Source: a virus
Direction: 5' to 3' (one strand)
IMG/VR virus record: IMGVR_UViG_3300018914_000077
Span: 1-37,323 of that record
DNA length: 37,323 nucleotides
In this document: one piece after another, positions 23,410-26,349 of the stretch
Position numbering within the stretch: position 1 is the first letter of the stretch
Layout of the letters: each line of letters begins with the position of its first letter
Made by a program: the position numbers and the translations under genes
Notes under the pieces: generated by a model
What the model was told of the DNA's origin: nothing
Databases searched by the model: none
What the model saw: the letters and a program-made list of their open reading frames with translations, nothing else

Positions 23410-23841
23410 ATGAAGAACGATGCAAACCGCATCATTAACGGCACGTACGGCCGCGTTTGGGTCGATGGCGAGCTGTGGGCGGAAGTCGACGCCTTTGAAG
23501 CCAAGGTAACGGTGAACTACGAGGACGTCAACTTTGCGGGCAGCGGTTCAACGCACAGGAAACCGACTGGCTGGACCGGTGAAGGAAGCATGACGATCAA
23601 GAAAATCTACTCCCGTGTTCAACGCAAGATGGCTGCGAACGTCCGTAAAGGGGTTTATCCCCGATTCGAGATCGTCGGCAAAGTGGATGACCCTGATGCT
23701 CACGGACCCGAACGCGTTGCACTGCACGATGTCACGATCAATGAATTCAATTTGCTCAAGTTCGAGCAGAAGACGCTGGGCAGCGAAGAAATTCCATTTG
23801 CATTTTCCGATTACGAGATGGTTGATACCATCGCGCCTTAG
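23410..23841 (+). CDS. xkdM: Tail tube protein (XkdM-like)
   Basis: A 143-residue beta-barrel protein with the family motifs NGTYGRVWVDGE, VNYEDVNFAGSGSTHRKPTG and GEGSMTIKKIYSRV, ending in the LGSEEIPFAFSDYE strand. It polymerises into the inner tail tube under the sheath. Position directly between sheath and chaperone is the PBSX order. Confidence 0.93.
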   Translation: MKNDANRIINGTYGRVWVDGELWAEVDAFEAKVTVNYEDVNFAGSGSTHRKPTGWTGEGSMTIKKIYSRVQRKMAANVRKGVYPRFEIVGKVDDPDAHGPERVALHDVTINEFNLLKFEQKTLGSEEIPFAFSDYEMVDTIAP

Positions 23842-23855
23842 GAGGGCACACGATC

Positions 23856-24245
23856 ATGGGTAAACGATTAACGGTTGCCGAGCTCCTTGCCAAGAAGGAG
23901 CAGCTGAAGCAACGCAAGAAACGGACGCAGACGATTTACGTCGAATCGCTCGATGCTGAGATCGTCATCCAGGAGCCGAGCCACGCGATCGCACTGGAGT
24001 CGCTGGAAATGGCTCACGATCCCGGCAATAACGATCGCGCAGACATTCACGTCGTCTATCACTGTGTCGTCGAGCCGAATCTTAAGGATGCTGAATTGCA
24101 GATTGAATTCGGTTGCGCGGAACCGACGGATATTGTCGGTAAGGTTTTCCTCCCGGGCGAAATTGCCGCGATCAGCGGTCATGCGTTGCAGCTCGCCGGG
24201 TACGGCACCTCTGTTCGTAAGGTAGACGATGACTTAAAAAACTGA
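23856..24245 (+). CDS. xkdN: Tail assembly chaperone, unshifted form (XkdN-like)
   Basis: This is the shorter product of the chaperone locus (129 aa), equivalent to gpG of lambda. It has an N-terminal basic helix (LTVAELLAKKEQLKQRKKRT), a beta core with the EIVIQEPSHAIALESL segment and a C-terminal helical part. It ends at TTA AAA AAC TGA, which is a slippery site. An AGGAGGGCA binding site lies upstream. Confidence 0.9.
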   Translation: MGKRLTVAELLAKKEQLKQRKKRTQTIYVESLDAEIVIQEPSHAIALESLEMAHDPGNNDRADIHVVYHCVVEPNLKDAELQIEFGCAEPTDIVGKVFLPGEIAAISGHALQLAGYGTSVRKVDDDLKN

Positions 24246-24403
24246 TCAAGTCCGACAGCGATCTTTACATGCTGCATCATTACCTGCAGCGCGGCCGATC
24301 GCTGTCGGAATTGCTCAGCCTCGATCCTATCGAGCGTCGATTTCTAAAAGTGTCAATGCTGCTGTATTACGAAGAAGAAGCCAAACGATGGGGGGCCGGA
24401 TAA
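23856..24403 (+). CDS. xkdN: Tail assembly chaperone, -1 frameshift product
   Basis: A -1 shift on A AAA AAC (24236-24242) avoids the TGA at 24243 and adds 53 residues (LIKSDSDLYMLHHYLQRGRS to YYEEEAKRWGAG, ending at TAA 24401), giving about 182 residues. The extension matches the usual C-terminal part of XkdN-like chaperones. A strong stem-loop starts 8 bases after the slip. The longer form is expected to recruit the tape measure, which is encoded next, while the short form coats the tube end. The ratio cannot be read from sequence. Confidence 0.9.
24219..24309 (+). promoter_or_regulatory. Programmed -1 frameshift signal
   Basis: The slippery heptamer AAAAAAC is at 24236-24242. After an 8-base spacer, TCCGACAGCGATC (24251-24263) pairs perfectly with GATCGCTGTCGGA (24297-24309). 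Within its loop GCTGCA (24271-24276) pairs with TGCAGC (24285-24290), giving a two-tier stem. An AAGGT Shine-Dalgarno-like sequence (24219-24223) lies 12 bases upstream of the slip. All three stimulatory elements known from bacterial frameshifting are present. Confidence 0.9.
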
Positions 24404-24441
24404 TGTCCGGCCTCTTCGTTGTGTAAAGGGCGGTGATCGTC

Positions 24442-26349
24442 ATGGGTTCGAGAGACATATCAAAAACAATGGTCCTGAAGGACGGCGTATCCAAACCGCT
24501 GAAGAAGATCAACCAAGGAGTCGTCGAGTACCGTCGCAATCTCCAAGATTTACGGGATGTGGGTGCCCGTACATGGTCGGCTATTCGAAGCGGTTTAACA
24601 TCCATCGGGGTTGCCGCAGCCGGTGCGGCTACAGCGATCGCCGGCGTCGCTGGTGTATCGTCCGTGCTGCAGATCGGCACACAGGCGGCCAGTGACCTGG
24701 AGAATTATCGTTTAACACTTGAAACCGTCTTGAAGGACACGAAAAAAGCCGGCGATCTCATGAAGTGGGCCGGGCAATTCGCCAACATCACGCCTTTCGA
24801 TACGTCAGAGGTCATTGAAGGTACGGTGCGCCTGGAGGCTTATGGTATCAGTGCGCAAGGTACCATGAGACAGATCGGTGATATGGCAGCCGTCATGAAC
24901 AAGGATCTAATGCAGGCCATTGAGGCGGTGGCCGACGCTCAGACCGGTGAGCTGGAGCGGTTGAAGGAATTTGGTATCACGAAGGCGATGATCGAGAAGA
25001 AAGCCGGCGAAATGTTCCGGAACCAAGTTGTTGTTAACAACAAGGGGCAGATTGTCGATCAGCAGAAGTTCAACGAGGCGCTCTTTGCTTTGATGGACGA
25101 ACGATTCAAGGGCGGTATGGAGCGTCAGTCGAGTACCTTCAAGGGACTTATGTCTACGATCACAGGCACTTGGTCAACGGGTCTTGCCGAAATGATGGGT
25201 GTCTCAGCAGCCGGTGAGGTGAGAGCGGGTAGTTTGTTTGCCACGCTTAAGAGCAGCGCGGAGAGTGCAGCGAGTGTTCTGACGCAAATGGCAGAGGACG
25301 GTACTTTTCAGCGGTGGGGAGACAACCTTGCGAGTATTGTTTCGGGAACGGCAACGGCATTCGCGATGGTTAGAGATAACTGGCCAGTTATCAGTCCGAT
25401 CATCTACGGAATTGTGGGGACGTTATCGGCTTATAAAGCTGCTGTTCTCGCGGCTAAGGCAGCAAACGTCATAAAGACGGCATCTGTCAAAACCATGGCA
25501 TGGTGGACAACATTTTACGGAAATGCTGCGGCAACTACATCCGGAAAGATGCGCATTATGACGCTTGTCCAGCATGGATTGAACGCAGCAATGCGAGCGA
25601 ATCCGATCGGAATGGTAATAACGCTACTTGGTTTGCTTGTGGTGGCAGGGATTTATGTCGTGAAAAACTGGGAGCAAATAAAGTTGGCTGGAATGCGAAC
25701 GTGGAACATTGTCGTAGATGCAGCAGAATGGGGCGTAAACAAGTTCATTGATTTCGCCAATTTTGTCTTTCGGGCATATAAGTTCGCTTGGGATAGCATC
25801 GAATTCGCTGGCAAGAGTATATGGAATGGAATTTTGGCTGCCGGTGAGGCTGGAGTTAACGGATTCATTAGTCTCATCAATTGGATGATCGAAAAGTCAC
25901 TCGACGGAATCAATTCGATGATTCGCGGCGCCAATAAGGTGGCCAGCAATCTTGGAATTGGCTCGGTCATGGACGAGATAACTTTTAACGGGATCGATAA
26001 AGTCAGTTTCGATGGAGCGAAAGCAGTCGCTGAGAAACCCAAGTGGGACAGCGGCCTCAATGTGATCCCGCAGCTTAACTTCGATGGGGCCAAATTTAGC
26101 GAAGATAGCCTCATGGAGCAAACCACCAAAGCACAGCGGGAGAGGGACAAGAAGAAGGGCAAGAGTGAGGAGGCGTTGGCTACTGCGATTGCAGAGAACA
26201 CAGCGGCTCTTACGGACAATACGAGTGCGACGGGGGCCAACACAGCTGCGACGGGGGCCAACACAGCCGTGTTGCTCGGTAATAAGAGCGCAACCGATAT
26301 CGCCGACTCACTGCTGGCTCGAATCGAGCGGCACCTGTATGCGACATAG
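24442..26349 (+). CDS. Tape measure protein
   Basis: The N-terminal part has the tape-measure core (LENYRLTLETVLKDTKKAGD, FANITPFDTSEVIEGTVRL, MNKDLMQAIEAVADAQTGEL at about 95-170). A hydrophobic middle with predicted membrane segments (about 295-330, 395-415) is followed by Trp-rich helical repeats (WEQIKLAG, AWDSIEFAGKSIWNGILAAG). The end carries an ATGANTA repeat. ATG 24442 is chosen since GGCGGTGATC sits just upstream of it. The protein sets tail length; 635 residues would give roughly 90-95 nm at the usual 1.5 angstrom per residue (inference). Confidence 0.92.
   Translation: MGSRDISKTMVLKDGVSKPLKKINQGVVEYRRNLQDLRDVGARTWSAIRSGLTSIGVAAAGAATAIAGVAGVSSVLQIGTQAASDLENYRLTLETVLKDTKKAGDLMKWAGQFANITPFDTSEVIEGTVRLEAYGISAQGTMRQIGDMAAVMNKDLMQAIEAVADAQTGELERLKEFGITKAMIEKKAGEMFRNQVVVNNKGQIVDQQKFNEALFALMDERFKGGMERQSSTFKGLMSTITGTWSTGLAEMMGVSAAGEVRAGSLFATLKSSAESAASVLTQMAEDGTFQRWGDNLASIVSGTATAFAMVRDNWPVISPIIYGIVGTLSAYKAAVLAAKAANVIKTASVKTMAWWTTFYGNAAATTSGKMRIMTLVQHGLNAAMRANPIGMVITLLGLLVVAGIYVVKNWEQIKLAGMRTWNIVVDAAEWGVNKFIDFANFVFRAYKFAWDSIEFAGKSIWNGILAAGEAGVNGFISLINWMIEKSLDGINSMIRGANKVASNLGIGSVMDEITFNGIDKVSFDGAKAVAEKPKWDSGLNVIPQLNFDGAKFSEDSLMEQTTKAQRERDKKKGKSEEALATAIAENTAALTDNTSATGANTAATGANTAVLLGNKSATDIADSLLARIERHLYAT

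Follow-up and report, generated by a model that had tools for sequence, protein, structure and literature searches.

The chaperone gene in front of the tape measure gene of this phage stops at a TGA that directly follows a run of six A and one C. Does translation end there, or does a fraction of the ribosomes slip at the A run into the -1 frame and make a longer protein, and if so, what stimulates the slip? An original prediction, made from the letters alone, had proposed a -1 frameshift. We followed it up in IMG/VR virus record IMGVR_UViG_3300018914_000077, positions 1–37,323 (37,323 nt, one strand; this whole stretch is called the window below), and in relatives of the locus.

The chaperone gene and its slippery heptamer

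The features of the region were as follows.

23,410–23,841, + strand: tail tube protein (XkdM-like; PF09393, E 2.5e-50)
23,856–24,245, + strand: zero-frame tail assembly chaperone, XkdN / Phage_TAC_5, 129 aa, ending in TGA at 24,243–24,245
24,219–24,223, + strand: AAGGT, SD-like, 12 nt upstream of the heptamer; role not supported
24,236–24,242, + strand: slippery heptamer A_AAA_AAC, in zero-frame phase, adjoining the stop
24,242–24,403, + strand: -1 frame ORF, 53 codons plus TAA, predicted C-terminal domain of the frameshift product
24,433–26,349, + strand: tape measure protein (PHROG 973, E 9.4e-27; PF20155, E 4.9e-6, below the PF20155 cut-off)

By profile homology, the zero-frame product is a Phage_TAC_5/XkdN tail assembly chaperone. 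It matched PF08890 (Phage_TAC_5, XkdN) with an E-value of 1.7e-11 and 44.7 bits (curated cut-off 27), and PHROG 4976, "tail assembly chaperone," with an E-value of 2.5e-35. A PDB profile search with the zero-frame alignment returned matches to designed repeat proteins only, and these were discarded as spurious. The gene sits between the tube and tape measure genes, an order shared with most annotated relatives; lambda and further tailed phages have their chaperone gene there too (PMC5009743). It lies 3' of the sheath and tube genes and 5' of the tape measure gene, and the phage is therefore contractile-tailed. The tape measure protein is the expected client of the chaperone, and by analogy with lambda the tube protein is expected to be the binding partner of the -1 domain. 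Elsewhere in the window, two ORFs on the minus strand (231–1,411) resembled by eye an ImmA/IrrE-type protein and a Cro/CI-type repressor, which suggests a temperate phage, and a 21-bp perfect repeat in two copies (TGCGACGGGGGCCAACACAGC) was seen at 26,226–26,267, close to the end of the tape measure gene.

The chaperone gene ended in the reading phase TTA AAA AAC TGA, with the TGA immediately 3' of the heptamer, exactly as predicted. AAAAAAC occurred twice on the plus strand of the window, compared with 2.7 copies expected from composition, and only the copy in the chaperone gene was directly followed by a stop. The AAGGT that had been pointed out as SD-like is indeed present, but we rejected it as a stimulator of the SD (dnaX) type, which calls for a conserved element ~10–14 nt upstream: the best anti-SD duplex for the window was weak (-4.4 kcal/mol), and the element was not conserved in the family, in which the mean was -3.37, compared with -3.03 in synonymous shuffles.

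Relatives were collected from IMG/VR, GTDB genomes and phage records, and comprised Bacillota phages and prophages; the 133 loci obtained were reduced to 79 representatives (<85% nucleotide identity). Because the script that built the 133-locus set accepted only loci with an A run and a -1 ORF of at least 40 codons, the loci that it had excluded were inspected singly. The original prediction had named homologs without heptamer and stem as a finding that would tell against it; the comparison instead showed an enriched stem (see below) and an in-phase heptamer with a homologous -1 ORF in 79 of 80 assessable representatives (77 with A_AAA_AAC and two with A_AAA_AAA). The stop followed the heptamer at a distance of 0 nt in 127 of the 133 loci and of 3 nt in the other six. 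The heptamer was seen in phages phiC2, KC5a, AQ113, Lj771, phiOH2, PVJ1, Davies, Osiris, PBP180, Lietuvens, MismyG and BalMu-1; in the last two, the stop came one or several codons past it. The single exception, a Paenibacillaceae prophage (L125, ~1861–1870), read CTA TAA AAC, with the middle lysine codon replaced by a stop and the -1 ORF still open, and is perhaps a recently inactivated copy. Two further loci are possibly decayed prophages: L117, in which the heptamer was followed by a -1 ORF of just 18 codons, and L123, which had a stop inside the chaperone and a decayed appearance. L031 (contig end) and L126 (which ends before the site) were left out as unassessable.

An A run can also act at the level of transcription, as such runs do in other genes: the polymerase would slip on it, and the mixed mRNAs would feed the -1 frame without any ribosomal frameshifting. 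Runs of 6 to 7 A are short for polymerase slippage. Because the run at this site was six A long in 77 of the 79 representatives (seven in the other two and never longer), we consider this explanation very unlikely, and the X_XXY_YYZ phase with a stem 3–9 nt downstream is what ribosomal slippage requires. Both processes are treated in one review (PMC5009743).

Frameshifts at A runs are, moreover, common sequencing errors. In phage EJ-1 (L151, NC_005294.1), ORF55 (695–1,291) is a single open frame, since it is one base longer than MismyG 5' of the A run; this state is either a natural fusion or a sequencing error, the two being indistinguishable. As an account of the locus, however, a sequencing error or a broken gene is already refuted by the comparison, since 79 diverged representatives, drawn from many sources of data, share this two-frame layout, and the -1 frame is under coding selection.

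The -1 reading frame and its domain

The -1 frame was open from 24,242 to 24,400 and closed by TAA at 24,401–24,403, giving a fused product of 182 aa; both the 53 open codons and the 182 residues had been counted correctly from the sequence. Its reading frame, homologs, substitution pattern and predicted fold indicate that this ORF is coding. In the window's clade, substitutions at -1 codon positions 1, 2 and 3 numbered 340, 186 and 731, respectively, with the third position dominating.

Several annotations treat the -1 ORF as a separate small gene, which would need its own or coupled initiation, and a small separate ORF was annotated there in eight of 19 annotated relatives. The window, however, contains no start codon between the upstream -1 stop (24,230) and an ATG at 24,269. 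In the family, the first possible start fell at a median of codon 14, within the conserved first helix, so the conserved beginning of the ORF (LI-x-S-D) is reached only via a change of frame. This lack of a start codon makes a separate gene highly unlikely, and separate initiation would leave the conserved heptamer and stem unexplained. The small hypothetical ORFs behind the XkdN genes in L009, L010, L011, L014, L153, L155, L156 and L160 resembled truncated readings of the -1 domain. A joined CDS or a frameshift annotation was present in none of the 19 annotated relatives, in agreement with the expectation that automatic gene calling would overlook the longer product, and our literature search found nothing relevant that named XkdN together with frameshifting.

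AlphaFold2, given 39 -1 domain sequences (rows from the phage collection were left out), predicted a compact three-helix domain with a mean pLDDT of 92.5. The domain had been described as an XkdN-like C-terminus, a description that did not hold: the PF08890 homology lies in the zero-frame part, and the -1 domain matched no Pfam family. Among the PHROGs, it matched PHROG 10264 alone (57 aa, function unknown; E 9.4e-6), which resembles it by profile but is filed as a separate small protein, and which is probably the detached -1 domain of the XkdN chaperone. Fold comparison returned nothing significant, with best E-values of 6.8 in the PDB and of 0.46 in BFVD, in which the top matches were small uncharacterised phage proteins, and therefore gave no functional clue for the domain.

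A stem with a fixed 5' arm and changing partners

Downstream of the heptamer, the following paired elements were found.

24,251–24,263, + strand: 5' arm of the outer stem, 8 nt past the heptamer, extended by 24,247–24,249 across one mismatch; position fixed across the family
24,297–24,309, + strand: 3' arm of the stem, extended by 24,311–24,313, encoding R-S-L-S-E of the -1 domain; register the same in 8/8 members of the window's clade
24,270–24,276, + strand: 5' arm of a second stem, nested inside the loop; in the clade, pairing in 87.5% of cells, without compensatory change
24,285–24,291, + strand: 3' arm of the nested stem

The outer arms pair in a perfect 13-bp stem, and the window held no other perfect 13-bp hairpin with a loop of up to ~60. 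A 6-bp stem nested in the loop pairs 24,271–24,276 with 24,285–24,290, or seven pairs counting a G-U. Both structures were thus present as predicted from the letters. The folding energy of the 90 nt downstream had a z score of -4.8 relative to shuffles that preserved the -1 peptide and codons.

When helices within the first ~165 nt were ranked by strength, the top one started 3–11 nt after the heptamer in 63% of the 79 representatives of the family, compared with 28% of synonymous shuffles. The near stem reached p <= 0.05 in 42 of the 79, and the combined Fisher p-value was 1.6e-32, which is too small because the representatives are related, although its direction is clear. Helix energies were simplified stacking energies, and a near stem was counted at -10 kcal/mol or better; in the 60 representatives that had one, the 5' arm began at +3 to +9 (one at +11), with a median of 7. 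Stimulatory structures for such signals are spaced 5–8 nt from the heptamer (PMC4066793), and both the 8 nt of the window and the family median fall within this range. What the window's clade had in common was a core of ~9–11 bp; the exact 13 bp of the predicted stem was not general.

A strong hairpin might also have another task, for example in transcript termination or mRNA stability, with the heptamer alone sufficing for frameshifting, and 19 of the 79 representatives had no convincing near stem. Against such a role, the stem lies within coding sequence with no T run after it, had no match in Rfam, and has a 5' arm that holds its distance from the heptamer even though the pairing partner differs. 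We regard another role as unlikely.

Across the family, the 5' arm was one constant stretch, coding for LI-x-S-D-x-D, and its 3' partner differed by clade. In alignable peptides, the partner sites were H-H-Y (codons 9–15), H-H-Y-L-Q, Y-A-L-H, R-G-F-A, H-S-L-S-E (the register of the window's clade) and N-F-H-I-A (codons 32–39, with a loop of ~74 nt, in Clostridioides phages and their kin). Over 8 nt, each clade paired at 88–100% in its own register and at 19–73% in those of other clades, the own-register values being inflated because the classes were chosen partly by pairing. The original prediction had suggested a search for covarying stems. Covariation was found in the HHY register (two-sided changes in seven of 13 pairs; score reached by 0/500 shuffles), the YALH register (three of eight pairs; 1/500) and the NFHIA register (3/500); the clade of the window, with eight sequences, is too small to reveal it, and 79/500 shuffles reached its score.

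When the register labels were placed on a quick tree, at least 16 changes were required, an approximate count because each label is a best helix found by computation and was binned coarsely. Within a 27-row clade dominated by HHY, the window's clade formed a group of 7 rows (SH-aLRT 99). In L049 and L052, the 5' arm paired with the HHY-class region one codon off (register 43, not 46), possibly an intermediate in a register change.

The stimulator is thus probably a partner-swapping RNA element, in which the heptamer and 5' arm stay constant and the 3' arm has moved repeatedly among at least six sites. Since the 3' arm moves while the other two parts stay in place, selection would act on the presence of a stem at a given spacing, not on particular base pairs. 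The fixed 5' arm with its swapping partner is new here and, together with the near-invariance of the heptamer, may be something that a specialist has not seen.

Probable programmed frameshifting and known systems

No other explanation accounts for this locus nearly as well as programmed -1 ribosomal frameshifting of the lambda G/GT kind, which on the sequence evidence very probably operates in the chaperone gene. The heptamer, its phase, the stop, the -1 coding and the stem can be read directly in the window and their conservation in its relatives, and as a conserved sequence feature the site is real beyond reasonable doubt. That slippage takes place, how often it does, and what each of the two products does we infer from these features.

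The majority of ribosomes would terminate at the TGA at 24,243 and release the 129-aa chaperone. A minority would be stalled by the stem with AAA in the P site and AAC in the A site, re-pair one base back, and continue in the -1 frame to yield the 182-aa form with its added three-helix domain. If the two products act as gpG and gpGT do in lambda, the tape measure protein would be coated by the short form, and the long form, made in a set ratio to it, would bring in tail tube subunits. Lambda requires gpG and gpGT at ~30:1 (PMC5009743), and A_AAA_AAC is a low-efficiency heptamer in Escherichia coli (PMC4066793), which would suit a minor long product. That same weakness in E. coli also counts against frameshifting, as do the representatives without a near stem, the loss of the heptamer in L125, and the covariation in the window's own clade, which stayed within the shuffles. 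Mass spectrometry of virions of the C. difficile phage phiCD508 showed neither gp57, its XkdN-like chaperone, nor gp58, a small protein (PMC11948020), as expected of chaperones; gp58 may correspond to the -1 ORF.

Phage_TAC_5/XkdN genes are common in Bacillota phages and prophages, and databases carry the short product only. That the heptamer hardly varies implies a constant place for the long form in the tail programme, and the small "hypothetical" ORFs downstream (PHROG 10264) would really be the C-terminal domain of the chaperone. The natural stems, with their fixed 5' arm and varied partners, make up a series in which to ask whether a bacterial frameshift stimulator depends on its distance and stability or on one particular structure.

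XkdN/YqbN of Bacillus subtilis (PDB 3klu) resembles the zero-frame product. The comparison was made at the protein level via a member of the family, L094, which matched the solved YqbN chain with an E-value of 2e-11; the match is limited to the zero-frame part, and the structure was deposited as an uncharacterised protein. As RNA signals, those of the IS3/IS1 family and dnaX (PMC4066793, PMC3711429) share with this site an A-rich heptamer, a stem a few nucleotides downstream, and stimulator structures that differ among members of one family. In those signals, however, the usual heptamer is A_AAA_AAG or A_AAA_AAA, in some cases joined by an SD-like element, whereas the XkdN family hardly departs from A_AAA_AAC and gives no support for such an element. 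A close parallel in gene organization is lambda G/GT and its relatives (Levin 1993; Xu 2004, cited in PMC5009743), which likewise lie between the tube and tape measure genes, shift by -1 near the end of the chaperone gene, yield a short form and a longer form with a -1-frame domain, and have a long product that gene callers miss. Unlike lambda, the locus described here belongs to the Phage_TAC_5/XkdN protein family, places its zero-frame stop right after the heptamer, and uses A_AAA_AAC, which in most members is followed by a stem at a constant distance.
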